Positions 3,527 through 25,594 of a stretch of 56,263 bases of DNA are shown piece by piece. A program made the translations under genes and the position numbers. The notes under the pieces are model-generated. The model was not told the DNA's origin. It made no database searches and saw only the letters and a program-made list of their open reading frames with translations. Every line of letters begins with the position of its first letter. The stretch's first letter is position 1. Source of the DNA: Erysipelotrichaceae bacterium (GTDB lineage Bacteria > Bacillota_I > Bacilli_A > Erysipelotrichales > Erysipelotrichaceae); assembly GCA_017539105.1 (NCBI GenBank), contig JAFYHQ010000031.1, forward strand, positions 1 to 56,263, read 5' to 3'.

Positions 3527-3549
3527 TATTCAATAAATCAGGAGTCAAC

Positions 3550-4572: not shown

Positions 4573-4575
4573 AAA

Positions 4576-5577
4576 ATGGTTTCGATCAAAGACATCGCAA
4601 AGGAATGCAGCGTATCGGTAGCGACCGTATCCAAGGCGCTAAACGATCATCACGACATTTCCGATGCGACAAAAGAAAAAATCAGAAAGACAGCGAAGAA
4701 AATGGGTTATACGACCAATGTCTCCGCCAGAGCTTTGAAGACCAATAAAACCTATAATCTCGGCGTACTGTTTGCGGACGACCGCGCAGGATTGAGCCAT
4801 GAGTACTTTTCCATGATCCTGGAAAGCTTCCAGAGAGAAGCGGAAAAGCATGGCTATGACATCACGTTCATCAACCATGCGATCGCAGGAAAGAAGACGA
4901 CCTATCTGAAACACGTGGAATACCGCAACCTGGATGGGATCGCGATCATTACCGCGGACTTCAGGGATCCCGAGATCCTGGAACTGGCCCGCTCCAAGCA
5001 TCCGGTGGTAGCGATCGACTATGTCCTGGAGAACTGTGCCGCTGTCCTCTCCGACAACAATCGCGGTCTGGAAGAAATCGTACACTATCTCTACAAGATG
5101 GGACATCGAAAGATCGCTTTCATCTATGGAAGTCCGACCTTCGTTACCAAAGAGCGTATCGGAAGCTTCCGCGGCGCCTGCATGCGGCTGGGACTGAATA
5201 TCCCTGAGGAATACATCGTGGAAGGCAACTACCACGATATCGAAGACTGCGGAAAGAAAACGGCACAGCTGCTGGATCTGAGAGAACCTCCTACCGCGAT
5301 CATCTTCCCGGATGACTATTCCTTCATCGGAGGACAGGAGGAAATCAGCAAAAGAGGCTTGAGCATTCCGAATGATATTTCCGCCGTCGGCTACGATGGC
5401 ATCAATATGGCCAAGATCATGTGTCTTACGACCTATGAACAGAATACCAGGGAACTGGGTCAGCTGGCTGCCAGGAAACTGCTGCAGCTGATCAATGAAC
5501 CGGATCTTCCGCCGGAGAGAGTCATCGTCAGCGGCAAGATGGTCGAAGGACGCACGGTCCGTAATCTGAACGAATAA
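4576..5577 (+). CDS. LacI/GalR family transcriptional regulator
   Basis: This 333-residue repressor has an N-terminal helix-turn-helix (SIKDIAKECSVSVATVSKALN) and hinge, followed by a periplasmic-binding-protein-like effector domain, with the typical C-terminal RVIVSGKMVEGRTV. It starts 3 bases after the GH5 stop and is therefore co-transcribed with the importer and GH5 genes, which it probably controls in response to a sugar. Its operator in this operon would lie upstream of the window. LacI-type palindromes at 10394-10413 and near 43953 are possible further targets of this or another family member. Confidence 0.92.
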   Translation: MVSIKDIAKECSVSVATVSKALNDHHDISDATKEKIRKTAKKMGYTTNVSARALKTNKTYNLGVLFADDRAGLSHEYFSMILESFQREAEKHGYDITFINHAIAGKKTTYLKHVEYRNLDGIAIITADFRDPEILELARSKHPVVAIDYVLENCAAVLSDNNRGLEEIVHYLYKMGHRKIAFIYGSPTFVTKERIGSFRGACMRLGLNIPEEYIVEGNYHDIEDCGKKTAQLLDLREPPTAIIFPDDYSFIGGQEEISKRGLSIPNDISAVGYDGINMAKIMCLTTYEQNTRELGQLAARKLLQLINEPDLPPERVIVSGKMVEGRTVRNLNE

Positions 5578-6251: not shown

Positions 6252-6386
6252 AGAAAGAGAAATGCATCTCATGCGCCTGCGGCAGCTGCAGCATGATCCC
6301 TATCAAGGCTTTACAGGCAGCCGGATCATGTACCAGCCGGTATCGTAAGCATTGCTTACTTCAAAGCAGTTTCTCTTTCTTTTTTC
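6252..6386 (+). ncRNA. Candidate structured RNA in front of the reverse transcriptase
   Basis: The 149-base gap can fold into a closed multi-branch structure. The ends pair perfectly, agaaagagaaa (6252-6262) with tttctctttct (6370-6380), and tgc/gca extends the stem past one bulged base to about 14 bp. Inside are an 8-bp helix catgatcc (6292-6299) / ggatcatg (6323-6330) and a hairpin gtaagc-att-gcttac (6345-6359). The 3' strand runs into a T-tract that ends at the start codon of the reverse transcriptase. It could be the RNA partner or template of the enzyme, a regulatory leader, or only a large terminator for the upstream gene. Confidence 0.5.
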
Positions 6387-7607
6387 ATGATGGAAACATT
6401 ATTAGATTCATTAAAAGAAAAAGAAGTCTGGCAGACGTTCTATAGCGACAAGAAAGAACGCAATCAGCTCAGGAAAAAGGAGCTTCAGGAACTGGACAGA
6501 TTCATCGAAGAAGAAAGATATCTCAGCGTCACTGAGAATCTTTCTTTTTCATACCCCGTCAAGAGACAGCTCACCAAGCTTGGATCCAATAAGAAGCGTA
6601 CCGTCTATTCCTATACGGATGATGAGATGTGGGTGCTGAAGCTGCTGGCTTATCTGCTGTACCGCTATGACGGAAAGATCTCGGAGAGCTGCTACTCGTT
6701 CCGTAGGAAAGCGACAGCGAAGACCGCATTCGATAAGATCAGAAAGATCCCGGAGATCGACAGCAGGTATGTCCTGAAGCTGGATATCCACGACTATTTC
6801 AATTCGATCGATGTGGGACAGCTGCTGGAAGTACTGAAGGAGATCATCGATGACGATCCTCCGTTGTACGAGTTCATGAAAGAACTGCTCACCCAGGACA
6901 GATGCGTCTGGAACGGGGAAGTCATTCAGGAGAAGCGCGGAGCCATGGCGGGCATTCCTCTGGCAAGTTTCTTTGCGAATGTCTATCTGCTGGAACTGGA
7001 TCACTATTTCGAAGAGGAAGAGATCCCTTATTTCCGTTACTCCGATGATATGATCCTCTTCTTTGGGGACGAGAAACAATTACAGGAACACGAACCTGTA
7101 TTGAAAGATATCCTGGAACGAAAGAAACTGACCTTGAATGAAGAGAAGTACCATCTCAGCCTGCCCGGCGAAGCATGGGACTTCCTGGGCTTCAGCTACT
7201 GTCATGGACAGATCGATCTCTCCGATGTCACGGTTCATAAGATGCAGGGAAAGGTACGCCGCAAGGCCATGAAGCTGTACCGCTACCGGAAAAAGAACCA
7301 TCTCCCATACGAGAAAGTCGCCCGTACGATGATACGCAGTTTCGACTACAAGTTCTATGACCTGACCGGAAACAATGACTTCACCTGGACAAGGTTCTAC
7401 TTCCCTGTCATCACCTGTGCCGACGGACTGGAAAAGATCGACAGATACATGCTGGAATATCTGCGCTATCTCTATTCCGGAAGACACTACAAGGGAAATT
7501 ACGCGGTACGCTATGAAACGCTGAAGAAGCTGGGCTATACGCCTATCAAGGCAGAATACTATCACTGGAAGAAAGAAAACGAGAGACTGCTTCGAAACAG
7601 GATGTAA
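6387..7607 (+). CDS. Free-standing reverse transcriptase (possible defence or unknown-group RT)
   Basis: This 406-residue protein has a full set of reverse-transcriptase motifs: VLKLDIHDYFNSID with catalytic Asp133, GAMAGIPLASFFANVYL (motif B), RYSDDMILF with the catalytic YSDD at 218-221, LNEEKYHL (motif D) and WDFLGFSY (motif E). The C-terminal 115 residues contain RHYKGNYAVRYETLKKLGY. It lacks a maturase domain X, an endonuclease domain and any recognisable intron RNA, so it is not a group II intron protein. Motif B differs from the usual retron and DGR forms. Similar solitary enzymes occur in Clostridia and related gut bacteria, from memory only. No Shine-Dalgarno site precedes the ATGATG start; the upstream bases are a T/C-rich strand of the candidate RNA. 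Confidence 0.85.
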   Translation: MMETLLDSLKEKEVWQTFYSDKKERNQLRKKELQELDRFIEEERYLSVTENLSFSYPVKRQLTKLGSNKKRTVYSYTDDEMWVLKLLAYLLYRYDGKISESCYSFRRKATAKTAFDKIRKIPEIDSRYVLKLDIHDYFNSIDVGQLLEVLKEIIDDDPPLYEFMKELLTQDRCVWNGEVIQEKRGAMAGIPLASFFANVYLLELDHYFEEEEIPYFRYSDDMILFFGDEKQLQEHEPVLKDILERKKLTLNEEKYHLSLPGEAWDFLGFSYCHGQIDLSDVTVHKMQGKVRRKAMKLYRYRKKNHLPYEKVARTMIRSFDYKFYDLTGNNDFTWTRFYFPVITCADGLEKIDRYMLEYLRYLYSGRHYKGNYAVRYETLKKLGYTPIKAEYYHWKKENERLLRNRM

Positions 7608-10591: not shown

Positions 10592-13500
10592 ATGTTGAAA
10601 AGATGGTTGTCAATCGTTTTGGTTACATTGATGTTCACCAGCAATATGCCGAGAAACGTCAGTGTCTATGCAGAAGAAGACCCGGTAGTCGAAACCGTAG
10701 AAGTACCAGGTGCAGAAGAAACCAGCACGGAGGAAGAAGAATTACCGACAGAAGAGAATGAAACCGTTGTCGGGGAGGAAACACCGCCGGACAGCGGGGA
10801 AGGGAATGAAGATGTTTCCGAGATAAATGAAGAAGCGGTCTATATCGTTTATGAGGAACTGGAGGCAGTCCAGGTCTTTGGCGACGCCGCTACGGATCCT
10901 GCGATGGCCGCACAGGCTTTGCATGAAGCGACTTCTCTGGATGGCGATGAAATCGATGAAACCGTTGAAGAGCTGTTCCGGGAAGGAGAAACCGAATCCC
11001 CGGAAGACGAAACTCTTCTTCCAAGCCTGGATGGCACACAGATCGAAGATAATTTTGCCGCAAGATGGATCACAGAAGATACGACTGACAACGACGATTC
11101 CGCGTTGCTTTATCTAAGACCGGGCAACAACGATGCTCAGAAGATGCGTCTGCAGATCAACTATGCCCTGTCCGGAGAACACAACTACAACCCTGGCGAT
11201 ATCACGATCACCATCCCTGCCTACCTGTTTACCGATCGTAACGGCAACAAGATCGGAACAGTAACAGTTCCTTATCCGGAAGATCCTTCCACAAAGGCTG
11301 ATTTCAACTGGAAACGGATCGGCGATCAGATCATCATCACCAACACGAAGAAAATGTCTGCAGCTACCAAAGGCTACATGCAGTTTGAATACAGCGGCAT
11401 TACTCCTTCACAGGTTCAGGATATGAAGGTCTCCAACGACTTTACCGCAACCATCGAAGTCGTTACCTGGAGAGGCAACCTGATTGGAAAGACGACCAAT
11501 ACGCTCAACGCTCAGATCGATACGGAAGCACGAATCAATTCCGTTAATAAGAGTCATTACAGCAACAATGTCGCAAGAGTTCCTGCTTCTCAGATCCCAG
11601 CAAGCCAGAGGATCGATGGAGAAGAAGAATATATCGTCGTGTCCTGGTTTGTCTATGGAAACATGTATGCCAACACGAAATATGAAATATCATTTACTGA
11701 TACGATTCCGACGGTAGACGGACATCCGGAATACAACGGTTTTGTGTTGGATTCGACAGCAAAAGATTATATCGATGAAAACGGGGTGTATCACTCCGGT
11801 ACGATCGGAACAGGAACGTATACCAATGGACAGACAAGTTATTATAGCGTAAAAACAGCGTATCCTGCTTCTCAGTTTGAGAAGGATACATTATATGAAT
11901 TCCATAACAACGCTGTCATGACGGTGAAAGAAGTAGATCCGGAGATGACAGAGAACACCAATCCGAATGTCCAGACTACAGACCCTCAACTGGTTACTAC
12001 CGCGTCTGATTCAGATAAGGTGGCATGGAGTTTCCGTGATCCGATCTGGATCGATCCACAAGGTCATTTCTGGGCAAACAAGATCGGTAATGATGATAAA
12101 GCGAAGGGAAACCAGACACATTATTCAAATTCTACCTACAGTGATACTCACAGATACAGCGGAGGCTACTATGGTATTTATCCTTCTGCTTTGAACGAAA
12201 TCAGAGAAGGAAAAGAAAGCGTCCAGTTATCCTATACGGTCAATTCCCGCGGTTACCTGATGCCTTGGACCTACGATTTCGACAACCTTCCTTGGGAAGA
12301 ACCTTATATCCGTTCCGTAAACAACTATTTCAAGAGATATCTGACTCTGACGACTACGGATATAGGACTAAAGATCAATGGTTCAGCTTTGACGATCTTT
12401 GATGACTATACTTATGTTTCCGTTGAGATCTTGGATCCGTATATCTATGATGGCGTACCTCAGAATGTCACTGCAGACGGCGATTACATCGCCAAGTATG
12501 CCGAAGATGGCACGTTCAAGTATACGCGTACCAACGATCTGACCAAAGCTCCTGATATCAAGCTGCAGATCTACCGCAATAGCGCATGGGAAGATTATGC
12601 GACGGTTTCTTATGCGACAGGTTCGCATGTGGTAACGCTGGCAAACGGATCAACAACGACAAATACTGTCATCTCGGTTCCTGCCGACACGGAAAATGTC
12701 AGAACCGTCACAACAACAAACGTTGCGGCGATCGATTATGATATCCGTCCGGTCGTTAAACTGAAGAACAACGCCAAGATAAAAAATCTTGTAGAAGTTG
12801 CTTTCAACAGATCCAATACGCCAAGCATTTCCGTATACAATGGCGCATCAATGAATGTGGTATGTGAAGGCGAGGATCTGATCACGATCACGAGTTCCGG
12901 TTATGATTCTTTGCGCGGTTATACGACAGACACCTATGTCATTCCAAGCAAGACAGCGAAACAGACGAGAACGGATTATGAGAACCGTCTCGTAACCATT
13001 CATTACACCGCGAAAGTGGAAGAACGTTCCTACATTCCGGAAAAGAGCATCTATAATGAAGCAGTTGCTACCAACAGATTGCAGCATGAGACCAAAGGCG
13101 TCTGGTATGACCTTCTGCCGGAGGGTGTTACGCCATTGACCGGCACAGTCAAGTTGAGAGATAACGATACGAAGACCTATGTCTATACGGAAGAAAACTA
13201 CAACAATTCCGGCAGGACCTTGCTGATCGTGGAATGCGACCTTCAGGTTTATCCGACGACATACCGTAGTGGCGACAGCGTGTATTTCATGGATGTTCCA
13301 TCTATTGAATTCGATGCGATCTATTCGTTTGATGCGATCGTCGACTTTGGCGATTATCTGCACAACGTGATCGCTTTCGAATCAGGAAACAGCACGTTAG
13401 GTTCCGTGAGGAACTATACCGGTGAACCGGACAACCCATATTCAAGCAACAACTCTTATACTTCCAGCGCTTTTGCGAACAAAGATGAAAAAGACTGGAT

Positions 13501-16500
13501 GAAGAATCTGGATAAACAGAAGGATGATCCGAATTTCGTTTATGCCGGCGCATATCTGAGAGTCGATATCCTTTCGTCTGCACGTACTTCTTTGCAGAAA
13601 GACGTCGATGTCAACAATGAAGGTTACTTCACGACAGGCGTTTACTGGGAATATGAAGACCAGAACAAGCGTGATGTCTATGAAGGCGGCATCTATCATT
13701 ACCGTCTGGGCATGACTTCGGATACGGCTACGGTTTCCAAGGATCTGATCCTCTATGATTTCCTGGAAGAATTCTATGCCAAGACCGATGAACACGATCC
13801 AATCGATATCGACGCGCCTAGATGGCAGGGCTATCTGAGAGATATCAATTTATCAGCGATCATCGAAAAGGGCTGTGCTCCGGTCGTCTACTATAGCACG
13901 ACGCCGAATCTGCAGATCACATCGACGCCGACATCCTTCCAGGTGATTCCGGAAGTTGCCGATGTGACCAATGAAGAAATATGGATAAAGGCAGAAGATT
14001 ATCCGACTACGGTAGAAGCGTTGAATCAGGTACGCGCGATTGCGATCGACTGCCGTAAGAAAGCTGACGGTACAGATTTCGAGCTGCCATCGGAAGAATC
14101 GATCACGGCGATCGTCAGAATGCAGGCACCGGATGGCGATGCTGCACGTGTAGCCATCGAAAACAATGCGCACGCATATAATAACGCTTATCTGCTTTCT
14201 ACTTCGCTTGATGAAATAACGCATGAACAGATGGAATCGGGCATTGTCAGAAAAGACTATACCAAAGTCGGTCTGATGGGATTGCAGCTGGATGTGAAGA
14301 AGGCTTGGAGCGATGACAGCAACCGTGATGGAATCCGTCCGGCGGATGTCGTGGTCCATTTGATTGCCGATGGGGTCGATACAGGAAAGACTGTGACATT
14401 GTCCGCAACAAATAACTGGAAAGATTCGTTCCTGCATATCCCGTATGCGGATGCATCCGGAAAGAAGATCCATTACACGATCCAGGAAGATATTCCGGTG
14501 GGCTATCGCGTGACTTATGGAAGCAACGATACCTATGATTTAACCGTCACTAATAAGCACGATCCTGAACTGATCGATATCGATGGAATCAAGACGTGGG
14601 AAGGCGGAGAGGAAGAAGAACTGCCTGAATCGATCACGGTCATTCTGAAGGCGAATGGAACCGAAAAGAGGAGACAGGTCATTAAGCCTGAAGAAGATGG
14701 AACCTGGAACTACAGTTTTGCGAATCTGTTCAAATATGAAAACGGCCAAGAGATCAATTATACCGTTGAAGAAGTATATGAACCGGGCAACGCAAGTGCT
14801 TCTTATGAGCCAAGAGTAGAAGGTTCGAGTGAAGAAGGTTTCAATATTATCAACACCTATCATCCTTATGGTGAGATTTATGTGGATAAGGATGTTACGA
14901 ACGTAACAGACGTATCTAAGAATACGGTCTTTGATTTTACATTTGTCTTTACGAAGAATGCGGATGGCCAGGAAGTTCCTGTATTTGATGAATATCCATA
15001 TGAGATCCTGGATAAAGATGGAAACAAGACCGGAGAAGGTGTGATCTCCAGCAACGGTACGATCAGCATCGATGCTGCCCACAGGATCCATATCTATGAT
15101 GTCGAAGAGTATGTCAACTATACAGTTACCGAAACAGAAAAAGACGGATTCGTTCAGGATTCCGCGACAAACGCTTCCGGGACCGCTTATCCGAACAATC
15201 CTGCTGAAGTATTGTTTGTGAACAGATATTCTGCTTCGGTACAATACAACCCGACGGTCAAGAAGACTCTTCAGAATCGCAAGCTGAACAGATATCAGTT
15301 CCAGTTCAAGCTGTTTGAAGTCGAGACGGTCGATGGGGCAGAAGTTGAAACGCTGCTGAAGACGACGTCGAATGGCAATCCGGATACTATCGTATATGAT
15401 GATGACACGAACACGACTGTCGTTTCTTCAACTGCTACTGTAACGTTTGGCGCATTCACTTATACGGTCGAAGATGTAGGCAAGACATATCATTACCGTG
15501 TCAAAGAAACGAACACCGAAAAGCCGGGTATCACCTATTCAGATACCGTTTATGACGTGTTTGTGACGATATCAGACAATGGCGATGGCACGCTGACAGC
15601 GACACCATTATATAAATCGAATGATGAAGATGTTGAAGATCCTGTATTCGAGAACGAATACAACGCAAAAGGAGAGATCACGCTGAAAGCCTGGAAAGAG
15701 CTGAAAGGCGGAGATCTCACGGCAGACATGTTTACGTTCGAACTGTTCGATGACAAAGGGAATCCTGTTTATGTGATCGATCCTGAAACGAATCTACCAA
15801 GCGAGGAACAGGTCACAGCGACGAATACCGCGGATGGTACGGTCGTTTTCAATGGCCTGAAATTCAATGAGACGCATGTCGGTAAAACATTCACTTATGT
15901 CATTAAGGAAAAGAACGAAGCAAGAGAAGACGTTACTTATGACACTTCCGAGAAGAGATATATCGTAACGGTCGTTGATAATGGCGACGGCACATTGTCG
16001 TTCAATACGATTATCAGAAACTACGAACTGGATTCAGAAACAGGCGAATACAAACAGGTTGGTGAAGACAATGATGTACCGCTCTTTACCAACGTCATGA
16101 AACCTGGCTCACTGTCTGTTACCAAGAAGGTCACTGCTGATTCTACCGGTTACGACCCACAGACGGAATTCAAGTTCAAGGTCAAACTGATCGGCGAAGG
16201 AATTGAAGATCAGCAGATTCATTACCATATCACGGAAGCCAGTTCTTCAGCGTCCGGCGGTAGTTCCGGCGGTTCCGGCGATGGCGGCAACAGCGTTCCT
16301 GCAGAGGCGGAACAGACAGGTATTCCGGAGGAAACGAATGATGTTCCTGTGACGGATGAAACGGATAATACTGAAAACGAAGATACGGCTTCAAATCTGT
16401 TTGATCGGATCGAAAGTATGCTGTTCAGAAAAGTATATGCGGCTGAAGAAATCTACAAGTCCGGAACATTCCAAGGTATTAGCTGGAGAATTACTACTAC

Positions 16501-19500
16501 GGGAGAACTGATCATCGGTACAGCCGGTGTAACTCAGACAATGGATCACCAGAATGAAGGAGTTGTCAGGAGTTGGCCTTGGAGACCGTATATAGACCAC
16601 ATTACAAGCGTTAAATTCGAAGGAACCGTAAAAGCGAATGGTTCTATCCAAAACATGTTCTATTTCCCAAATGGAAACGATAATATTACGACGATAGATG
16701 TAACCAATTTTGATACTACCAATGCAACGGATATGCGAGGCGTGTTTGCTGAAAACAGAGCATTAACCACGATCGTTGGAATTCAAAATCTGAAGACCGA
16801 TAACGCTACTAAGTTCCATTACATGTTTAACTCTTGCCAGAAGTTGACCAGTCTGGATTTGTCAGAATGGAAGACTTCAAATGTGAATGCCATGGAATTA
16901 ATGTTCAATCAGTGCTATAAGCTGACTAGTTTGAATGTTAATGGATGGAATACAGGCAAAGTTACAAACATGGAATATATGTTCGGAGATTGCAAAGCGC
17001 TTGCAGCATTAAATGTATCTCATTTCAATACATCAAATGTTACATCTATGCTCAATATGTTTAGAAACTGTGAGTCCCTGACTGCGTTGAATATAGTTGA
17101 TTGGAACACATCAAAATTAACCAATATGGCAGAAATGTTCTATGGGTGCCGGAAATTGCGCTCAATAGATATGCATACAAACGGCCAAAAGTGGAATACG
17201 AGCAAGGTTACGAAAATGTATGGTGTTTTCAATCTTTGTTACGCATTAGAGACTGCAGATGTATCCGGTTGGAATACAGCAAATGTTACAGGCATGACTC
17301 ATATGTTTGCCAATTGTCGGGCATTGAAGAGTTTGGATGTGTCAAGTTTTAATACAGAAAAAGTGACAGATATGGCTGGAATGTTCTATTACTGTCAGAA
17401 ACTGACAAAACTGGATATATCGAATTTTAAAACACCTAAAGTCAGAATATTCTATCAGCAATCGAGTGATTCTAGCAATCCTTGGCATACCGGTTTCTTT
17501 GAAAACTGTTCTCAGTTGGAAGAATTATACATGTCTAACTTTGATACAAGAATAGCAACTGATCTTCAGGACATGTTCACGAATTGTCCGAAGTTGGAAA
17601 AGATTGAATTAGGTGCCAATTTCAAGTTCAAAGGCAACAACATAACCAACACTACGAAACAGGCGATCCTGCCGACTCCTCCGGAGGATTGGACATCAGG
17701 CGAATGGATCCGTGAAGACACGACGGAGTTTGGGCCATACACTCCTGCAGCATTAAGAGATGGATATACATCTGTTATGGCTGGTGTTTGGGTATGGAAC
17801 AAAGTGGATGCTGAATTCACTCTTCAGTTTGATGCGGGTAATGTAGGCGCTGTTGGTTCAATGGCAGATCAGTCATTAGATCCGCGATTGGACAATGTTC
17901 TTCCTGCGAATGCTTTTGTAAGCCATGGCTATGTGTTTGATCACTGGGATGACGGAAACAGTCACACCTACAGTAATGAAGGCACTATCCCTGCCAAGAC
18001 TTACAGCAACGGTGATACAGTCGTTCTTACGGCTGTCTGGACGGAGAAAGACCTGTCTGCCGATATGACAGACGGAGAATTCGAATTCACTCTGTATGAA
18101 GGCGAAACAGCGACATTCGATGACATCCCTGCAGGCACGGCTTACCAGGTCTGGGAAGAAACGCCGGATGGCTGGATCCTGGTGGAACAGCACAATGTTT
18201 CAGGCACGATCACGCCGTTGACGACAGCAGAGGCTGATTTCACGAACCAGTATGAACCGGGTACGACCTCCGTACAGTTCTTCGGTACGAAGAAACTGGA
18301 TGGTTTCGCTGCCGAAGAGAATGCGTTCAGTTTTGAACTGATCGATGACGCGACAGAAGAAGTGATTGAAACAGTCAAGACTTTGGATGGCGGCTTCATT
18401 CAGTTCAGCACAATCGTTTATCGTGAAGCAGGAGATCATTCTTATACGATCAGAGAAGTTGTTAACAGTGATGATGAAAAGATCCAGTATGATACGCACG
18501 AAGAGAAAGTGACTGTCGTCGTTTCAGATAACGGTGATGGAACATTGTCTTCAACTGTTACATATGATGATGACGGTGTAAGTTTCGAGAATACATCGAA
18601 TCCAGGCAACCTGAGAATCACGAAGTCTGTTGTCAATCCAACAGATGAAAACGTTAAAGAAGAATTTACTTTCAAGGTAACGTTCACGAATGAGAAAGGT
18701 CTGCCTCTGGATGGCGAGGAGATCTACTGGTACATCGAAGGCCAGCAGGGCAACCAGACGGAACCGGATCCTGATCAGGGAGATACAGGTGCTGTCGATC
18801 TTTTAGAGCGGATGATCGATCGCATCTTCCGTAAAGTGGACGCAGCAGATGGCGATATCGCTTCCGGTACCTATGATTACATTTCATGGAGAATCACTTC
18901 CAACTGGGAGCTGATTCTTGGTAACGGCGGAACACAGACGATGAGAAACAGAACAAGCAGATCAGCGTCGTCATGGCCATGGTGGAACAGCGCCTATGAA
19001 CCATATATCAAGTCTGTTCGTGTCGATGGAACGATCAACGCTCAAGGTTCCTTGAGAGAGATGTTCTATAAATATCATTCGAACGGTTCAGGCGGAGAGG
19101 TATGGGGCGCCAGCTATCCGAGCCTTACCAGCATCGATCTGAGGGGCATGAAGACCACCAATGTTACCAATATGGACAGCATGTTCAGAGGATGTCCGGC
19201 TGTCAAGACGATCAATGTTACAGGTTTTGATACATCGAATGTTACGAATATGACGTTTATGTTTGGTGTATGTAGAAATCTGAAAACCATCGAAGGCATA
19301 TCTTCTTTCAATACAGGAAAAGTCACTACTTTCAACTATATGTTCGGTGACAGTTCCAGCCTGGATGGTCTGGATGTTTCTAAATGGAATACATCAAATG
19401 TAACCAATATGTACGCTTTGTTCTGGAACACCGGCTTGACTTCCATCGATGTGAGCAAGTGGAATACCAGCAAGGTTACGACGATGGAGTGTATGTTCGG

Positions 19501-22500
19501 TAACAGCAGAAAGCTGAAAGAACTTGATGTTTCGAATTTCGATACACGTAATGTAACTCACATGGGCGGTATGTTCCATGCGTTGGTTCTGCTTGAATCG
19601 CTGGATCTCAGCAACTTCAATACCGACAAGGTATCGGATTACCATCACGGCAACAGCAGTGACTGGTATCAGGGTATCTTTGACGGATGCACGAATCTCC
19701 GTTATTTGAATATCGAGAATTTCAATATATACAGCACTGGTGTCATCGTTGATAATATGTTCAGAAAGTGTCCGAACTTGAGCGAGGTCGTTCTTGGATC
19801 GAAGTTCAGCTTTAAGGGCTATGTGAATTCAACCAGCTACAGACCTTATCTGCCGACTCCGCCGACTGGCGACGATTCTCCTTATACCGGCAAATGGGTC
19901 GAAGTCACCGGAGCAGTACAAGGTTCTTATACGCCTGAAGAATTGTATAATGCATACAATGCCAACATGGCCGGTACCTGGGTCTGGGAGGTTGATAACT
20001 CGAAAGCAAAAGTCATATTCGACGGCAATGGAGGATCATGCACAATCAACCCAATCGTTCTGTCTGATGGAGAAACTTCCATTACGACGCCAACGATCAA
20101 TCAGTGCAGAAGGAATGGTTACATTCTGACCGGATGGAATACCAAAGCTGATGGTTCAGGTACGAGTTATGGACCTGGTTTCACAAGCGATGAGATCGCG
20201 ATCTATGGAAAGACCGTGATCCTGTATGCCCAGTGGCAGACAACGGATGACCGTTACTATGAAGTCCGTCATTACAAGGAGAATGTCAGCACAGGTACTT
20301 ATGACCTGTATGAAACAGATTATCTGTGGGCTCCTAAGAACAGCAGTCAGACACCTTCCGTAAAGGATGGCGAAGATTATGATGGTTACAAATCACCGGA
20401 ACCGCAGACGATCACGATCGGCGAAGATGGCAAGACAGTATTGGATTATAATTATGCTCTTGCCCGTTACTCTATCGTCTACGATGGCAACGGTTCTACC
20501 GCAGGCTCCATGAGCACGGAGAACAATGTCATTGCGATGGTCAACCATGAGCTGAAGAGAAACAGCTTCGTGAAAGACAAGTCGATGTTTATCGGCTGGA
20601 ATACCGAACCGGATGGTTCCGGAGAAAGCTATGCCGATTGCGGCGTTCTGAAGAATCCGACAGCGAAAGAAGATTATGTCGTGACTCTGTATGCGCAGTG
20701 GCTGGAGAATCCGAATCCGGTACTGGAACCGAGTCAGGGCTCGATCATCGTGAAATGTAAAGCGGGCGAGACGATCGTCATTCCGAATCTGCCGGCTGGT
20801 ACGCATTATGTGGTCGAAGAAATCAGTACTACGGATCACTGGCGGTATGAAGGCGGCGTCAATGAAAATGGTGATATCGTCTCTGCGGAATCGGCAAGCG
20901 CAACTGTTAACAACAAGTATCTTGCGGAAGGTTCATTCTATATCGTTGCTCATAAGAAACTGAAAGGCGCTGATCTGTTAGGCGATGCCTTTACGTTCGA
21001 ACTGTTAGAGATCCCGGAAGGCGGAACGGAAGATGATGCTGTAAGTGTACAGACATTGACGAACGACCCGATCGATAACAACGAAACGATCATCGATGAC
21101 GGAGGAAATGAAGTTGAAAATCCTTGGATCGGAACAGGCGCTGTCCAATTTGATTCGATCACGGTCGATCAGGAAAAGATCGGCAAACGTCTGGAATACA
21201 TCATCAGAGAAATTCCAAAAGAAGGCGACAACACGATCGCTTATGACGACCACATCGAATATGTCTCAGTAACGATCAACGATATCGGCGGTGGTATCTT
21301 ACAAGCCGAGATCGTCTACGATGACGATGGACCGCTGTTCACGAACGAACAGAATCCTGGTTCTTTGAAGATCAGGAAAGTAACACAGTATGCTCCGGCG
21401 GATGATGATTCGGAATTCACGTTCACTGTGGAACTGAAGAATGCGGATGGAGAAGCTCTGACTGGCGAGTACAACGCAATCAGATATAAAGCAGATGACA
21501 CTGTCGTTGAGGAGCTTACCGTAAGTTCTGGTTCTACGGTCAATCTGAAAGGCGGAGAGTATGTCGTGATCAGCGGTTTGCCTGATGGAGCGACATACAC
21601 CGTTACCGAAGCAGACCTGAATCACTGGATACCGGAATCCAATGAAAATGCGACCGGTACGATCCATTCTTCTACTGTGATCGAAGCAGTATTCACCAAC
21701 CGTTACACCCGTAAGGATATCGAGGCGGAAGGAAACATACAGCTTTTCGCTAAGAAAGTATTCGAAGGGGATGTTATCAAGGAAGAAGATGAACTGCAAT
21801 TCCAGCTAATCAATGAAGATGGCGATGTCATCGAAACGATCGGTCCGGATGAGACGGATGTCGAAACTTCGCTGATCAGTTTCACTGAACTCTACTTTGA
21901 TAACACAGCCGCAGGCAAGACGTTCACTTACTATATCAAGGAAGTCGATGGAGAACACGAGGATATCGTATACTCTACGGTGAAATACATGGCTGAGGTC
22001 GATGTGATATTCAATGGTACCAGAGTTTATGACTTTGATGTCAGGTACTATAAGCTTGGTGAAGAAACGCCATTAGGCGAAGGAGAGATCCCTGTATTCA
22101 CCAATGTCCGCAACGGTTCTTTCAAGATTGTCAAGACATTCATAAGCTATGAAGTCCACAGTCCTGTAACTTATATATTCCACGTTACAGCGGTATATAA
22201 TAACGAAACGATTTACGACGAATTCCTTTCCATGACAATAGATGAAACCGGTGTCTATGAGATACCGATCGAAAATTTGCCGGTAGGTTCTGAGGTGACG
22301 ATCACCGAAGTCTACGGCGGCGGATCCTACGAATTGGAAATGGGCGGCGAAGTCAGTCAGACGATCACCCTTGATGAAGATATTGATAAGAATGTGGTAG
22401 AATTCGTTAATGGTTATGAAGATAGCAACATCTTCGGATACGGCGTGACCAATACGTACACCCAGGGCAACAACGGCTGGACATGGACAAGCGGTGATAC

Positions 22501-22570
22501 CGGCGGAATATTTGGACAAGATGACAGCGGACCGGGTGTAGAAGAAGAGGAAGGAGGTACGGAACAATGA
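10592..22570 (+). CDS. Giant modular cell-surface adhesin (Cna-B, Spy0128-like, BspA-LRR, InlB-repeat domains)
   Basis: This 3992-residue exported protein has a signal peptide at 1-27 ending VYA. An acidic stretch (28 to about 150) leads to an adhesin-like head of unknown fold (to about 1225). Then come two Cna-B-type domains (about 1230-1427), a DUF5979-like domain (to 1549) and five Spy0128/FctA-like pilin domains with YDxxxYxVxVxDNGDGTL patterns (about 1549, 1692, 2558, 3446, 3711). Two DUF7601-like domains are each interrupted by a BspA/DUF285 repeat module plus InlB/Flg_new repeats (inserts about 1882-2490 and 2717-3375); an intact copy sits at about 3589-3707. The C-terminus is acidic, without LPxTG or membrane segment. 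ATG 10592 is preferred over 10577 because GAGAGGG is correctly placed for it. The next gene overlaps by ATGA. Confidence 0.9.
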   Translation: MLKRWLSIVLVTLMFTSNMPRNVSVYAEEDPVVETVEVPGAEETSTEEEELPTEENETVVGEETPPDSGEGNEDVSEINEEAVYIVYEELEAVQVFGDAATDPAMAAQALHEATSLDGDEIDETVEELFREGETESPEDETLLPSLDGTQIEDNFAARWITEDTTDNDDSALLYLRPGNNDAQKMRLQINYALSGEHNYNPGDITITIPAYLFTDRNGNKIGTVTVPYPEDPSTKADFNWKRIGDQIIITNTKKMSAATKGYMQFEYSGITPSQVQDMKVSNDFTATIEVVTWRGNLIGKTTNTLNAQIDTEARINSVNKSHYSNNVARVPASQIPASQRIDGEEEYIVVSWFVYGNMYANTKYEISFTDTIPTVDGHPEYNGFVLDSTAKDYIDENGVYHSGTIGTGTYTNGQTSYYSVKTAYPASQFEKDTLYEFHNNAVMTVKEVDPEMTENTNPNVQTTDPQLVTTASDSDKVAWSFRDPIWIDPQGHFWANKIGNDDKAKGNQTHYSNSTYSDTHRYSGGYYGIYPSALNEIREGKESVQLSYTVNSRGYLMPWTYDFDNLPWEEPYIRSVNNYFKRYLTLTTTDIGLKINGSALTIFDDYTYVSVEILDPYIYDGVPQNVTADGDYIAKYAEDGTFKYTRTNDLTKAPDIKLQIYRNSAWEDYATVSYATGSHVVTLANGSTTTNTVISVPADTENVRTVTTTNVAAIDYDIRPVVKLKNNAKIKNLVEVAFNRSNTPSISVYNGASMNVVCEGEDLITITSSGYDSLRGYTTDTYVIPSKTAKQTRTDYENRLVTIHYTAKVEERSYIPEKSIYNEAVATNRLQHETKGVWYDLLPEGVTPLTGTVKLRDNDTKTYVYTEENYNNSGRTLLIVECDLQVYPTTYRSGDSVYFMDVPSIEFDAIYSFDAIVDFGDYLHNVIAFESGNSTLGSVRNYTGEPDNPYSSNNSYTSSAFANKDEKDWMKNLDKQKDDPNFVYAGAYLRVDILSSARTSLQKDVDVNNEGYFTTGVYWEYEDQNKRDVYEGGIYHYRLGMTSDTATVSKDLILYDFLEEFYAKTDEHDPIDIDAPRWQGYLRDINLSAIIEKGCAPVVYYSTTPNLQITSTPTSFQVIPEVADVTNEEIWIKAEDYPTTVEALNQVRAIAIDCRKKADGTDFELPSEESITAIVRMQAPDGDAARVAIENNAHAYNNAYLLSTSLDEITHEQMESGIVRKDYTKVGLMGLQLDVKKAWSDDSNRDGIRPADVVVHLIADGVDTGKTVTLSATNNWKDSFLHIPYADASGKKIHYTIQEDIPVGYRVTYGSNDTYDLTVTNKHDPELIDIDGIKTWEGGEEEELPESITVILKANGTEKRRQVIKPEEDGTWNYSFANLFKYENGQEINYTVEEVYEPGNASASYEPRVEGSSEEGFNIINTYHPYGEIYVDKDVTNVTDVSKNTVFDFTFVFTKNADGQEVPVFDEYPYEILDKDGNKTGEGVISSNGTISIDAAHRIHIYDVEEYVNYTVTETEKDGFVQDSATNASGTAYPNNPAEVLFVNRYSASVQYNPTVKKTLQNRKLNRYQFQFKLFEVETVDGAEVETLLKTTSNGNPDTIVYDDDTNTTVVSSTATVTFGAFTYTVEDVGKTYHYRVKETNTEKPGITYSDTVYDVFVTISDNGDGTLTATPLYKSNDEDVEDPVFENEYNAKGEITLKAWKELKGGDLTADMFTFELFDDKGNPVYVIDPETNLPSEEQVTATNTADGTVVFNGLKFNETHVGKTFTYVIKEKNEAREDVTYDTSEKRYIVTVVDNGDGTLSFNTIIRNYELDSETGEYKQVGEDNDVPLFTNVMKPGSLSVTKKVTADSTGYDPQTEFKFKVKLIGEGIEDQQIHYHITEASSSASGGSSGGSGDGGNSVPAEAEQTGIPEETNDVPVTDETDNTENEDTASNLFDRIESMLFRKVYAAEEIYKSGTFQGISWRITTTGELIIGTAGVTQTMDHQNEGVVRSWPWRPYIDHITSVKFEGTVKANGSIQNMFYFPNGNDNITTIDVTNFDTTNATDMRGVFAENRALTTIVGIQNLKTDNATKFHYMFNSCQKLTSLDLSEWKTSNVNAMELMFNQCYKLTSLNVNGWNTGKVTNMEYMFGDCKALAALNVSHFNTSNVTSMLNMFRNCESLTALNIVDWNTSKLTNMAEMFYGCRKLRSIDMHTNGQKWNTSKVTKMYGVFNLCYALETADVSGWNTANVTGMTHMFANCRALKSLDVSSFNTEKVTDMAGMFYYCQKLTKLDISNFKTPKVRIFYQQSSDSSNPWHTGFFENCSQLEELYMSNFDTRIATDLQDMFTNCPKLEKIELGANFKFKGNNITNTTKQAILPTPPEDWTSGEWIREDTTEFGPYTPAALRDGYTSVMAGVWVWNKVDAEFTLQFDAGNVGAVGSMADQSLDPRLDNVLPANAFVSHGYVFDHWDDGNSHTYSNEGTIPAKTYSNGDTVVLTAVWTEKDLSADMTDGEFEFTLYEGETATFDDIPAGTAYQVWEETPDGWILVEQHNVSGTITPLTTAEADFTNQYEPGTTSVQFFGTKKLDGFAAEENAFSFELIDDATEEVIETVKTLDGGFIQFSTIVYREAGDHSYTIREVVNSDDEKIQYDTHEEKVTVVVSDNGDGTLSSTVTYDDDGVSFENTSNPGNLRITKSVVNPTDENVKEEFTFKVTFTNEKGLPLDGEEIYWYIEGQQGNQTEPDPDQGDTGAVDLLERMIDRIFRKVDAADGDIASGTYDYISWRITSNWELILGNGGTQTMRNRTSRSASSWPWWNSAYEPYIKSVRVDGTINAQGSLREMFYKYHSNGSGGEVWGASYPSLTSIDLRGMKTTNVTNMDSMFRGCPAVKTINVTGFDTSNVTNMTFMFGVCRNLKTIEGISSFNTGKVTTFNYMFGDSSSLDGLDVSKWNTSNVTNMYALFWNTGLTSIDVSKWNTSKVTTMECMFGNSRKLKELDVSNFDTRNVTHMGGMFHALVLLESLDLSNFNTDKVSDYHHGNSSDWYQGIFDGCTNLRYLNIENFNIYSTGVIVDNMFRKCPNLSEVVLGSKFSFKGYVNSTSYRPYLPTPPTGDDSPYTGKWVEVTGAVQGSYTPEELYNAYNANMAGTWVWEVDNSKAKVIFDGNGGSCTINPIVLSDGETSITTPTINQCRRNGYILTGWNTKADGSGTSYGPGFTSDEIAIYGKTVILYAQWQTTDDRYYEVRHYKENVSTGTYDLYETDYLWAPKNSSQTPSVKDGEDYDGYKSPEPQTITIGEDGKTVLDYNYALARYSIVYDGNGSTAGSMSTENNVIAMVNHELKRNSFVKDKSMFIGWNTEPDGSGESYADCGVLKNPTAKEDYVVTLYAQWLENPNPVLEPSQGSIIVKCKAGETIVIPNLPAGTHYVVEEISTTDHWRYEGGVNENGDIVSAESASATVNNKYLAEGSFYIVAHKKLKGADLLGDAFTFELLEIPEGGTEDDAVSVQTLTNDPIDNNETIIDDGGNEVENPWIGTGAVQFDSITVDQEKIGKRLEYIIREIPKEGDNTIAYDDHIEYVSVTINDIGGGILQAEIVYDDDGPLFTNEQNPGSLKIRKVTQYAPADDDSEFTFTVELKNADGEALTGEYNAIRYKADDTVVEELTVSSGSTVNLKGGEYVVISGLPDGATYTVTEADLNHWIPESNENATGTIHSSTVIEAVFTNRYTRKDIEAEGNIQLFAKKVFEGDVIKEEDELQFQLINEDGDVIETIGPDETDVETSLISFTELYFDNTAAGKTFTYYIKEVDGEHEDIVYSTVKYMAEVDVIFNGTRVYDFDVRYYKLGEETPLGEGEIPVFTNVRNGSFKIVKTFISYEVHSPVTYIFHVTAVYNNETIYDEFLSMTIDETGVYEIPIENLPVGSEVTITEVYGGGSYELEMGGEVSQTITLDEDIDKNVVEFVNGYEDSNIFGYGVTNTYTQGNNGWTWTSGDTGGIFGQDDSGPGVEEEEGGTEQ
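16639..17640 (+). repeat. BspA/DUF285 leucine-rich repeat block 1
   Basis: About twelve 24-26-residue repeats of the type MFxxCxxLxxLDVSxWNTSxVTxM encoded within the giant gene. Sampled lines are 33-37% GC (17041-17100, 17341-17400), clearly below the 48-50% of the second block. Confidence 0.85.
19046..19815 (+). repeat. BspA/DUF285 leucine-rich repeat block 2
   Basis: About nine repeats of the same MFxxCxxLxxLDVSxFNTSxVTxM type. The block is preceded and followed by segments homologous to those around block 1 (ISWRIT before it; LPTPP and MAGTWVW after it). Confidence 0.85.
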
Positions 22571-23067
22571 GAAAGAAACTGATGATCGGCCTGATGGCCG
22601 CAATGATGATCCTGATCGTTTCTGTTCCGAATGCTCTTGCTTACTTCTCCACCTACGCGAGGATCAAGGGAACAGCTCAGCTGCATCTCGGCGAGAGCGT
22701 GACCTTCGAGGAAGGCCCGTCCGAGGACGGAAACAAACTCGTCACTCTTACCGCAGATGAAGACAGCGGCGACGTCTATGTGAGAGTCAAGGCCTTCGCG
22801 GTCGATGCCGTATTGGACAATCTTACTTATAAAGATACAAACGAATGGACAGAGTCCGATGATGAAAGTTGTAAAGTATTTACCTATAACGGATATCTCT
22901 CGGCAGGAGAATCTGCCTCGATCGAACTGATCGTCGACGCGGATAAGACCGGACTGGATAACTTCAGCCTGATCGTGGTCTATGAGTACTGCCCGGTGAT
23001 TGGAGATACGCCTGACTGGACCGGCGAGAACATCCATCTTGTCGAAGATCCGAACGGAGGTGAGTAA
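22567..23067 (+). CDS. Small secreted protein, SipW/TasA-cargo-like
   Basis: This 166-residue exported protein has a signal peptide MRKKLMIGLMAAMMILIVSV with a cleavage site at NALA-YF. The mature start AYFSTYARIKGTAQLHLGE matches the pattern of SipW-dependent signal-peptide proteins and is reminiscent of TasA/camelysin fibre subunits. The rest is a single acidic beta-rich domain (VYVRVKAFAVD, SASIELIVDADKTG). Its start codon overlaps the stop of the giant adhesin gene (ATGA), implying coupled translation and a joint role at the cell surface. No SipW-like peptidase is in the window. Assembly into fibres is an inference. Confidence 0.7.
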   Translation: MRKKLMIGLMAAMMILIVSVPNALAYFSTYARIKGTAQLHLGESVTFEEGPSEDGNKLVTLTADEDSGDVYVRVKAFAVDAVLDNLTYKDTNEWTESDDESCKVFTYNGYLSAGESASIELIVDADKTGLDNFSLIVVYEYCPVIGDTPDWTGENIHLVEDPNGGE

Positions 23068-23912
23068 TGATGAAGAGAACACGTAAAGATATCGTTATCG
23101 CCTATGCCGTACTGATCGTTTCGGCTCTGGTGTTCGCCTGGACTGCGCTTTCCATGATCACAGGCGCAAGCGCGGAACTGAATTACCGTTCCGATGAATT
23201 CCAGCCTGATTTCGACATGTATCATATCGGTGTCACGCTGAACGAGAACGGAGAACCGAAGGCCTGGAGGAACTATCTTCAGGAAGGCGGAAACAATGAT
23301 TCGACGGAAGGAAGCTGGCACGTCAACGGAGAGGCTTATCTTCTGGAAGATCTTGATTTCAAGATCGGACAGGAATACAACGAAGTGCTGACCGTGTCCA
23401 ATTCCGGCACGATCGACGAGTACGTCAGAGTCACGATCTACCGTTACTGGATGGATTCCGATATCCAGAACTATAAGGAGCTCAATGATGACAAGAACAG
23501 AGCTCTGGATCCTGACTATATCGATCTGAATCTGGTGAATCTCGACGAGGATCACTGGATCCTGGATGAGGATTACACGACCAAGGAAAGGACCGTGCTC
23601 TACTATGCCTATCCTCTGACCAAGAGCGATGGACAGTATTTCGATCCTGACAACGGAACGAGCGTCCCGTTTGCGGATACGTTCATGATCGATCCCGAGG
23701 TCAAGACTTTCATCTATCAGAAGAAGGAGACCAAGACGGTCGATGACAGGACATACACGACGGTAACGAATTATTACCTCTATGACGGCAAGTACTTCTG
23801 CTTGGATGTGGAGGTAGATGGCGTTCAGATCAACAACGCGAAGGACGCCATAAAGAGCGCCTGGGGCAGGGACGTCTCCATTGCGGATGACGGAAAGCTG
23901 TCTCTGGACTGA
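23067..23912 (+). CDS. Secreted protein of the same surface operon
   Basis: This 281-residue protein has an N-terminal hydrophobic segment (IVIAYAVLIVSALVFAWTAL) and a possible cleavage site after GASA. The mature part contains DFDMYHIGVTLNENGEPKAW and the segment LTVSNSGTIDEYVRVTIYRYW, which resembles the TasA-like pattern of a beta sandwich in which Asn-Gly-Asp precedes YVRV. The start overlaps the previous stop by one base; a second ATG at 23070 would be equally good, with GGAGGTGA upstream. It is probably the second minor subunit or an adaptor of the surface structure. I cannot name a family with certainty. Confidence 0.65.
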   Translation: MMKRTRKDIVIAYAVLIVSALVFAWTALSMITGASAELNYRSDEFQPDFDMYHIGVTLNENGEPKAWRNYLQEGGNNDSTEGSWHVNGEAYLLEDLDFKIGQEYNEVLTVSNSGTIDEYVRVTIYRYWMDSDIQNYKELNDDKNRALDPDYIDLNLVNLDEDHWILDEDYTTKERTVLYYAYPLTKSDGQYFDPDNGTSVPFADTFMIDPEVKTFIYQKKETKTVDDRTYTTVTNYYLYDGKYFCLDVEVDGVQINNAKDAIKSAWGRDVSIADDGKLSLD

Positions 23913-23925
23913 AAGGAGAAAGAGC

Positions 23926-25557
23926 ATGAAGAGAAGATGCATTCTGATTTCAATCGCAGTACTGCTGCTTAGCGCCCTCTTTCCTTTCACGGTAAAGGCG
24001 GAGACGGTCTCGTTCGATGTGACGTTTGAATCATCGGGCGGGGATTACACGATCACCGGCAATGATGATGACAGTTCGGTATATGACGTTCTCAAAGGCA
24101 TGCAGCCGGGGGACACGGCGGATATCGAATTCGTTCTGAAGAATGATACAGGCAAGAAGATCGCCTGGTGGATGAAAAACAATGCTCTGACTTCGTTCGA
24201 GGATGAGGGTGTCGCCAAACATGGCGCCTACACCTATGACCTGTCTCTGGTGAATTCCTCGGGTACGGAATCTGTCCTCTACTCCAACAACGAGGTCGGA
24301 GGTCAGGACAGTACCGAAGGTCTGCATGAAGCGACGGAGACTCTGAAGGATGATTTTATCTTCCTGGAAGAGATCGAAGGCAATCAGACGATCAGGGTCA
24401 AGCTCCATCTTGAACTGGAAGGCGAGACTCAGTCCAACCTCTACCAGGAGGTGCTGGGACAGCTTGAATTCATCTTCGCGACCGAACTGATCGAGAGTGG
24501 AAAGAGGATAATCTATGTGGTTCCTCATACGGGTATTGAAGGAAGAGATTCCGTCAATACACGTAACAGGCTCATCCTGCTTGTTTCTCTGGTATTTATG
24601 GCTCTGGCAGGGCTGTATCTGCTTCTTAGCAGAAAGTCGCTGAAAAAGGCTAGAAATACCGCTGTTGCGATCTTGCTCGCACTGACTCTTATCATTCCTT
24701 TATTTACCGAAAGGGTAAACGCCTACAGTTCCTATAAAGTCACTTTACTGGCAGGAAACTATGGGAAGATCATCGATCCTGCGGACGGACAAAAGAAAGA
24801 CAGGGTGGAACTGGAATTCTTCCCTGACAGCAACGATCCGAACGAAAGGATCTGGACCCCCGGCGACTATGATGTCGTAGTGACGGATGACCGCTACTAC
24901 TGCAACAACGAGTACCACATCTCCGGCATCGAAGGGATCGCGGAGGCGCAGGAAATAAAAGAAGACATGGTCTTTGTGGCCACCTACAGGATCAAGGGCG
25001 ATCTTGTGGCTTATACCATACACTATGTGGACGCTTCGGGAGCGCAGCTGCTTCCGGATTCAGTGTTCCATGGCAATATCGGGGAAGAGGCCGTGCTTGC
25101 CTATAAGTACGTGGAAGGCTACCTTCCCAACGAATTCACGCAGTCGCACATCCTTTCGGACGATGAGGATGAAAACGTCTTCACCTTCACCTACCACAGA
25201 GCCGAAACGGGAGAAGGTGGAGAGACCGTCATCGTCTACGAAGAAGGTGAACCGGTAGTGAGGCCTTCGACTCCGGGAGGCAACCAGTCCGGAACGACGC
25301 CTGCAGTTCCATCGGAACCTGCAGAGCCGACAGAACCGGTCGAACCTTCTGAACCGACAGAACCTACGGAACCGGTCGATATCGATGATCCGACCACGCC
25401 TACGACCGTCGATCCGGAACCGACCGTTAAACCGGAACCAGACAAAGAGGATCAGCCGTTCATTCCGATGGCGATCCTGATCGGCGGAGGATCTCTCCTG
25501 TTCCTGTTCCTGCTGCTGTTCCTGCTGAGGAGAAGAAGAAAGGATCAGGAAGAATAA
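23926..25557 (+). CDS. Three-segment membrane protein with internal sorting-signal-like motif and MucBP domain
   Basis: This 543-residue protein has a signal peptide at 1-25 (PFTVKA) and a first extracellular domain (26-195). Then comes VVPHTG (198-203), followed by a hydrophobic segment (215-234) and a basic run SRKSLKKAR: the order of a sortase sorting signal. Immediately afterwards comes a second signal-peptide-like segment (245-261, then ERVNA-YSS) and a second extracellular domain with a MucBP-type repeat (360-424). A Pro/Glu/Thr-rich spacer (447-506) and a final membrane helix with RRRRKDQEE complete the protein. It looks like two exported proteins fused in frame. ATG 23926 follows AAAGGAG; the frame is open further upstream, inside the previous gene. 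It may anchor the giant adhesin. Confidence 0.75.
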   Translation: MKRRCILISIAVLLLSALFPFTVKAETVSFDVTFESSGGDYTITGNDDDSSVYDVLKGMQPGDTADIEFVLKNDTGKKIAWWMKNNALTSFEDEGVAKHGAYTYDLSLVNSSGTESVLYSNNEVGGQDSTEGLHEATETLKDDFIFLEEIEGNQTIRVKLHLELEGETQSNLYQEVLGQLEFIFATELIESGKRIIYVVPHTGIEGRDSVNTRNRLILLVSLVFMALAGLYLLLSRKSLKKARNTAVAILLALTLIIPLFTERVNAYSSYKVTLLAGNYGKIIDPADGQKKDRVELEFFPDSNDPNERIWTPGDYDVVVTDDRYYCNNEYHISGIEGIAEAQEIKEDMVFVATYRIKGDLVAYTIHYVDASGAQLLPDSVFHGNIGEEAVLAYKYVEGYLPNEFTQSHILSDDEDENVFTFTYHRAETGEGGETVIVYEEGEPVVRPSTPGGNQSGTTPAVPSEPAEPTEPVEPSEPTEPTEPVDIDDPTTPTTVDPEPTVKPEPDKEDQPFIPMAILIGGGSLLFLFLLLFLLRRRRKDQEE

Positions 25558-25564
25558 ATCAGAT

Positions 25565-25594
25565 AAACGTCTTCTTTGAGAAGACGTTTTCTTT
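25565..25594 (+). terminator. Terminator of the surface-protein operon
   Basis: Stem aaacgtcttc / gaagacgttt (25565-25574 with 25580-25589), 5-base loop, followed by TCTTTT. It closes the four-gene operon. Confidence 0.88.

Follow-up and report, generated by a model that had tools for sequence, protein, structure and literature searches.

A gene for a giant surface adhesin of 3992 residues is closely followed by three genes for smaller exported proteins, here termed P2, P3 and P4, on a 56,263-nucleotide contig of an Erysipelotrichaceae bacterium (GenBank JAFYHQ010000031.1); this entire contig, C25 of a draft genome (89% complete, 2.09 Mb, 48 contigs), is the window of our analysis. With a probability of roughly 0.58, we read the locus as a satellite copy of a conserved surface-fibre and anchor cassette of gut Bacillota, whose first gene, the variable one, encodes in this case a giant adhesin, and in which the giant would be held via a short C-terminal tag, P2, P3 and the N-terminal half of P4 (P4N). 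The sequence comparisons that carry this proposal demonstrate a conserved gene order, a gene fusion, conservation of the tag and of particular residues, the presence of candidate machinery elsewhere in the genome and, in a relative, a tagged giant that stands apart from the partner genes. The tag is a feature absent from the preliminary description of this DNA and is new here.

The four genes are tightly packed on the forward strand (Table 1). The stop codon of the giant overlaps the start of P2 by 4 nucleotides, that of P2 overlaps the start of P3 by 1 nucleotide, and a gap of 13 nucleotides separates P3 from P4, behind which lies a terminator-like hairpin. These coordinates, overlaps and gap, together with the hairpin, agree with the preliminary description of four coupled genes ending at a shared terminator; in the scanned region there are 20 such hairpins, against 12.4 +/- 3.4 in shuffled sequences. 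The frame of the giant is open over 3992 codons from the ATG at 10592 to the stop ending at 22570, with a second in-frame ATG (10577) ahead of the one taken as its start. A signal-peptide-like N-terminal segment, read by eye, is present on all four proteins.

Relatives of P3 were found in 21 of 101 genomes of relatives and in 39 loci of titled assemblies, the titles being mostly those of gut metagenome-assembled genomes of Erysipelotrichaceae or Lachnospiraceae, with Oscillospiraceae, Eubacterium, Blautia, Atopobiaceae, Butyrivibrio fibrisolvens, Acetatifactor muris and others among the remainder. After 12 loci identical in contig to loci of the G-numbered genomes were dropped, 54 loci were read; they include near copies (e.g. 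L044/L045 and L083/L084) and, having been picked by a P3 match, represent P3-bearing loci. Their usual order is adhesin or adaptor, P2, P3, P4N, P4C (the counterpart of the C-terminal half of P4) and often a gene for a SipW-type signal peptidase. P2 stands immediately ahead of P3 in 50 of the 54 loci, the exceptions being L060, cut by its contig, and three loci in which no P2 stands before P3 (L065, L066 and L068); P4N follows P3 in 53, the remaining locus (L046) again being cut by the contig. The order is kept beyond chance, and the small exported genes do occur beside giant adhesins in relatives with their order unchanged, so that the preliminary description passes a refuting check that it had set itself. 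The cassette is not peculiar to giant adhesins: its first gene encodes either an adaptor of 330-520 residues or an adhesin, which spans about 1000 to 4000 residues (some contig-cut). Of the 27 named loci that remain without duplicates, 21 combine a class C sortase gene ahead of P2 with an upstream protein of 330-518 residues. In L083, L084, L096 and L101 the SipW and class B sortase (SrtB) profiles match one and the same open reading frame (ORF) of 406-486 residues, a fusion that suggests coupled signal cleavage and sorting. Two further ORFs of unusual architecture were seen: a SipW-matching one of 486 residues in L105 (4842-6302), a locus with no separate P4C gene, which may be a P4C-SipW fusion, and one of 394 residues in L184 (6081-7265) that matches both SipW and a SipW-cargo profile and is apparently a peptidase-cargo fusion.

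The tag was delineated by aligning the last 190 residues of the protein preceding P2 in 46 loci. Left out were L044, as a near copy of L045, L067, whose untagged ORF before P2 is itself a SipW cargo, and L052 and L073, in which the selection rule yielded no upstream ORF (the upstream protein of L052 nonetheless visibly ends in GYGIKNTFTKG and more). Proteins of 330 up to 4000 residues have this tagged C-terminus in common. In their last domain a Lys is conserved in 45, a Glu in 46 and an Asn in 45 of the 46 rows, a pattern as expected of an isopeptide domain, in which the bond is putative. The tag, with a motif of roughly G-x-G/S-x-x-N-x-F/Y, places its own Asn 12-14 residues past that of the domain and 12 to 53 residues from the C-terminus; its glycines vary (40/46 and 37/46), while the Asn is invariant in 46 of 46 rows, and in 34 of 34 after thinning the loci to less than 60% P3 identity. 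A 41-row alignment (48 tails minus five near copies or untagged ones, giving 43, minus two more) has a mean identity of 18%, and just two of its residues are invariant, the tag Asn and the Glu of catalytic type. In the predicted structure the tag forms two strands (residues 151-157 and 160-167 of the 190) outside the confident domain and separated from it by a linker; these strands may pair with each other in a hairpin of their own. By eye, no row of the 46 has a hydrophobic segment or positive tail after the tag. Among order-level relatives, a second form of the tag, D-x-I/V-x-N-x-F, ends the large protein beside BsaA-like cargos in L068, L172, L174 and L185, with a variant, IVINEI, in L184; the large proteins of L066, L067, L175, L186 and L187 have no clear tag by eye, in a look that left L065 aside.

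The giant itself ends in such an isopeptide-type domain and tag, preceded by Cna_B (114 bits) and FctA/Spy0128-type (207 bits) domains, both above the Pfam family cut-off, DUF7601, two DUF285/PARCEL leucine-rich blocks and a Flg_new repeat; there is no Pfam match at E<=0.01 in its first ~1200 residues. Its C-terminus, read to the end, has no hydrophobic segment, LPxTG or positive tail of the kind found on sortase-assembled pilus subunits, and neither Pfam nor NCBIfam scans return an anchor family, so that the earlier claim of a giant with no membrane or LPxTG anchor holds. As a separate observation, the DUF285 blocks (window about 16300-18253 and 18700-20920) may each sit within a domain of DUF7601 type: the sequence after each block matches that model in its second half only, and the sequence ahead of each has a signal-peptide-like stretch with RKVYAAEE or RKVDAADG at its end.

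P2 and P3 share a homologous core, and many members of these families are weakly similar to BsaA and other SipW cargos, in keeping with the SipW/TasA-cargo style first ascribed to the two small exported proteins. In the P3 family 19 of 21 members match the BsaA model TIGR04090 at E<=0.1 (best 7.6e-9), a model with matches in 2 of 195 genomes sampled from the phylum. The window P3 reaches 18.4 bits on it, below the 60-bit cut-off, and P2 of the window has no match at E<=1; by the curated cut-offs applied to their sequences neither is a member of the BsaA family. The SipW-type signal model TIGR04088 likewise has no match on the window P2 or P3, and on five distant cargos it matches those of L066, L067 and L068 and not those of L172 and L174. 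The structure model of P2 is a confident beta-sandwich with a disordered N-terminus, for which a structure comparison of 50 rows gave common-fold matches only, with no TasA among them; a search of PDB chains with the P3 and P2 profiles likewise gave only chance-level matches and no TasA chain at E<=1. Lys57 and Glu140 of P2 are invariant in 45 of 45 rows; Arg73 and Trp94 are invariant too. The column corresponding to the donor strand distinguishes P2 from its kin: 23 of 28 outgroup SipW cargos have Asn there, whereas 44 of 45 P2 rows have Gly. In P3 a catalytic triad of Lys126, Glu174 and Asn112 was considered and ruled out because the window protein has Arg at position 126. A single relative of P3 has a match (2.4e-7) to the bindosome BasC model of NCBIfam.

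P4 had been described as a three-segment membrane protein with a sorting-like motif; the motif and the segments are present, but this single gene corresponds elsewhere to two. Its first half matches a 248-residue protein and its second half a 334-residue protein, encoded separately in a sister cassette on contig C23 of the same genome, and therefore, by sequence comparison, P4 is a fusion. The P4N half comprises an exported domain, VPHTG, a transmembrane segment and K/R residues, and the P4C half a second signal-like segment, a MucBP-like domain (match below cut-off), a Pro-rich region, a transmembrane segment and RRRR. Through the fusion, both the sorting motif and the signal-like segment of the P4C half come to lie inside the protein, and this segment may be cleaved. 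None of the curated anchor models matches at the VPHTG motif, PF00746 matches P4 only at C-terminal residues 516-540, below cut-off, and P4N gave no useful alignment with P3 or P2. The same fusion occurs in the near relatives L044 and L045 and in the distant locus L097.

Whole-genome searches recovered five sortases above the Pfam cut-off, all off the window contig, and a single SipW-type peptidase (C23:38247-38672; 83.9 bits, cut-off 51.85); the window contig has no Pfam sortase and no SipW-type peptidase. The preliminary description held that the machinery must lie elsewhere or be unusual; candidates for it lie on C23, namely SipW, a class C and a class B sortase. The sister cassette there starts with a signal-peptidase-like gene (below the TIGR02228 cut-off), an LPxTG major pilin and the class C sortase, continues with an adaptor of roughly 400 residues, a P2-like and a P3-like protein, and ends with the 248-residue protein (IPYTG, one transmembrane segment), the 334-residue protein (transmembrane segment, RRRRR), SipW directly after this P4C, and the class B sortase. 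Its adaptor has no LPxTG at its end. P2, P3 and the tag-type C-terminus thus each occur twice in the genome, once on C25 and once on C23; the tag profile has a third, weak match (E 7.6e-5), to a domain that comes earlier in the giant itself. In genomes G000, G009 and G052 the DNA read next to the giant has no SipW, which lies elsewhere in the genome; in G013 and G022 it is also elsewhere, with the contig ending within about 0.5 kb of P4, so that a SipW in cis is possible; and G032 (74% complete), one of ten genomes searched, has no SipW match, its giant locus stopping at a contig edge.

Two observations connect the tag to P2 beyond their adjacency. Across the 101 genomes, strong matches of the tag profile (E<1e-25) and strong matches of P2 (E<1e-35) share the same 16 genomes; many of the genomes are drafts and they are mutually related, for which reason the coincidence is given with no probability attached, and weaker matches on both sides fall in other genomes too. 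Secondly, G052 encodes four tagged giants: a tandem pair of 4669 and 3010 residues, the latter adjoining P2, a third of 3066 residues within another cassette, and a fourth, 3650 residues long, on contig C24. The stretch around the last of these (1.7 kb before and 6.3 kb after the gene) contains no P2, P3 or P4, and profile searches locate the P2 and P3 of this genome on contigs C38 and C35 alone; on C24 itself, some 10 kb past the giant, there is a SipW-type gene. Retention of the tag on a giant with no neighbouring P2 is hard to explain by operon structure alone.

We propose that the giant would be secreted by Sec without itself being sorted, and that its tag would act as a donor strand, filling an unfilled strand site of P2 and replacing the strand that carries the donor Asn in related cargos. 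P2 and P3 would be secreted beta-sandwich-type proteins, distant kin of BsaA-type SipW cargos; P4 would bring a sortase-type anchor subunit (P4N, with VPHTG) plus a membrane companion (P4C) that would stay in the membrane. P3 and the VPHTG-bearing half of P4 would then link the giant-P2 complex to the wall by means of a sortase acting in trans, with SipW and the sortases supplied from contig C23. Of these steps, the action of SipW and SrtB on these proteins is probable, and docking of the tag on P2 is, by a slight balance, what we would expect. A covalent bond between Lys57 of P2 and Asn3954 of the giant is the boldest step and a speculative, rather unlikely one; the residues that a tag/catcher pair would need are conserved, with Asn on the tag and Lys and an acid on P2.

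Several results weigh against strand donation of this kind. When its Asn column is left out of account, a donor-strand profile built from the cargos scores the tag highest of all Asn positions in 14 of 46 tails, where 4.7 would be expected, and puts it among the best 5% of positions in 10 of 46 (against 1 of 45 for the control, the neighbouring domain Asn); by sequence profile, the likeness is thus an enrichment, with no match for most rows. In the first cargo set the donor Asn and the Lys occur together in 23 cargos, Asn only in 0, Lys only in 1 and neither in 4 (p 2.4e-4), a covariation noticed only afterwards. A second set is uninformative, with 12 cargos having Asn and Lys, 2 Asn without Lys and none lacking Asn; it was counted by motif, the column table being unused as the Asn column of its alignment was shifted by one. 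Pooled by motif, the two sets give p = 0.0066. An acid occurs at the Glu140 column in only 13 of the 23 cargos with Asn and Lys, and when cargos and P2 are aligned together, nothing is invariant except Lys57 and an acid at the position of P2 Glu49 (mapped by eye), so that the candidate for the acting acid is ambiguous.

Among other explanations, the one that survives best is a BsaA/TasA-like matrix with which the giant is merely co-expressed, being secreted and loosely held, while the tag serves another role such as shielding the last domain. The BsaA polymers of Clostridium perfringens form without sortase and are mainly extracellular (PMC7395162, in excerpt), the contact between giant and P2 is a proposal only, and the tag may form a hairpin of its own; against this, the tag Asn is one of just two residues to survive at 18% mean identity, the strong tag and P2 matches agree genome by genome, and one giant has retained the tag although P2-P4 are missing from its surroundings; we hold this explanation to be improbable. 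Less probable again is that the tag is a transpeptidase site, for instance of a class B sortase, at which the Asn joins the adhesin to P2, P3, P4N or the wall. An invariant Asn close to the C-terminus would suit such a site, and a class B sortase lies beside or fused to SipW in several cassettes as well as on C23; but the 46 rows lack any hydrophobic segment or positive tail past the tag, SrtB has 14 members in the loci read versus 47 for SipW (duplicates included and SipW-SrtB fusions counted as SipW), and P4N already provides a PxTG-like motif. That the giant is a tip or side subunit of the C23 sortase C pilus, with P2-P4 as parts of it, is the least likely account: short cassettes do adjoin a class C sortase gene and C23 also encodes an LPxTG major pilin, but the giant offers no LPxTG to sortase C and no such gene occurs in the DNA read around the window locus or around the giant loci L045, L046, L047, L049, L050, L051 and L064 (some contig-cut).

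Table 1. Features of the four-gene locus, and two tagged giants of genome G052 (locus coordinates).
Feature	Position	Strand	Basis or remark
Giant adhesin, 3992 residues	10592..22570	+	ORF reading; Pfam and NCBIfam scans
Cna_B domain, best stretch, residues 1234-1321	14291..14554	+	Pfam
First DUF285/PARCEL leucine-rich block, about residues 2020-2346	16649..17629	+	Family-model scans
Second DUF285/PARCEL leucine-rich block, about residues 2860-3058	19169..19765	+	Family-model scans
Last beta-sandwich domain of the giant, residues 3841-3942	22112..22417	+	Alignment; high-confidence structure prediction
C-terminal tag GYGVTNTYTQGNNGWTWTSG, invariant Asn3954 (nucleotides 22451-22453)	22439..22501	+	Alignment; predicted structure
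P2, 166 residues, small exported beta-sandwich protein, candidate tag receptor	22567..23067	+	
P3, 281 residues, exported, weakly BsaA-like, core homologous to P2	23067..23912	+	
P4, 543 residues, P4N+P4C fusion	23926..25557	+	
VPHTG sortase-type motif within P4	24520..24534	+	Thr invariant in 43/43 P4N rows
Internal signal-peptide-like segment of P4, ends VNA before YSS	24658..24723	+	Equivalent to N-terminus of the C23 P4C
Terminator-like hairpin, 11 pairs, then T-rich stretch	25565..25589	+	
Tagged giant, 3650 residues, genome G052, contig C24	L171 1737-12689		
Tagged giant, 4669 residues, genome G052	L173 1615-15624		

Upstream of the locus, the window contains an RT-5 RNA (Rfam RF03026, 82.4 bits) at 6271-6373, directly ahead of a gene for a reverse transcriptase of 406 residues (6387-7607). 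The latter suggested a diversity-generating retroelement acting on the adhesin, a candidate set aside as no supporting repeat was found: there are no direct repeats of at least 45 bases in 5500-26000, and the genome has no second copy of the RT-5 RNA region. Further upstream (2372-5577), genes for an ABC-transporter ATPase, a GH5 cellulase-type protein and a LacI-type regulator lie in a row and, going by their sequences, are perhaps a polysaccharide-use cluster.

How giant surface proteins with no recognisable anchor are held is an open question, on which a tag and a small secreted receptor would bear. If the proposed mechanism is true, other unanchored adhesins could be assigned to the system by their tag sequence; a more tentative consequence, which we would not count on, is that several giant adhesins per cell, some encoded far away, share one SipW/sortase base with no need of LPxTG. 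Literature searches, which in effect did not cover family-model names, found no description of the cassette or the tag.

In our assessment, the system resembles by analogy the SipW fibre systems of the TasA/BsaA-like kind joined to sortase anchoring. The nearest precedents for the proposed mechanism are the donation of a strand by TapA to TasA (PMC9674648 and PMC10151520, each in excerpt) and the sortase-free BsaA polymers of C. perfringens, which resist sodium dodecyl sulphate (SDS) and formic acid and polymerise without SrtB (PMC7395162, in excerpt); if the bond suggested here were covalent, it could bear on that resistance. The neighbourhood of the sipW-bsaABC operon in this organism likewise unites SipW, BsaA-like secreted proteins, other secreted proteins and the gene of a class B sortase, whereas the excerpted account mentions no giant tagged adhesin there, and the window P3 falls below the BsaA cut-off. 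The TasA/TapA system of Bacillus subtilis and TasA/CalY of B. cereus share SipW-processed beta-sandwich proteins and strand donation, but here the proposed donor would be the C-terminus of the giant adhesin and the receiver a P2 devoid of the cargo donor Asn. SpaA/FctA-type sortase pili have in common with this genome the Cna_B, FctA and isopeptide-type domains, and C23 adds a class C sortase and an LPxTG major pilin; unlike them, the giant and the C23 adaptor lack a terminal LPxTG and the giant locus lacks a sortase. Finally, the archaeal thread filament protein Saci_0406, in which strand donation is accompanied by an apparent isopeptide bond (PMC9715654, in excerpt), and the engineered protein-ligation system SpyCatcher/SpyTag (PMC6539128, in excerpt) both present the idea of a strand tag that completes a beta-sandwich and that may be bonded through Asn or Asp; such bonding is putative in the present system, which, if it does prove covalent, would give the engineered tag/catcher tools a counterpart in nature.

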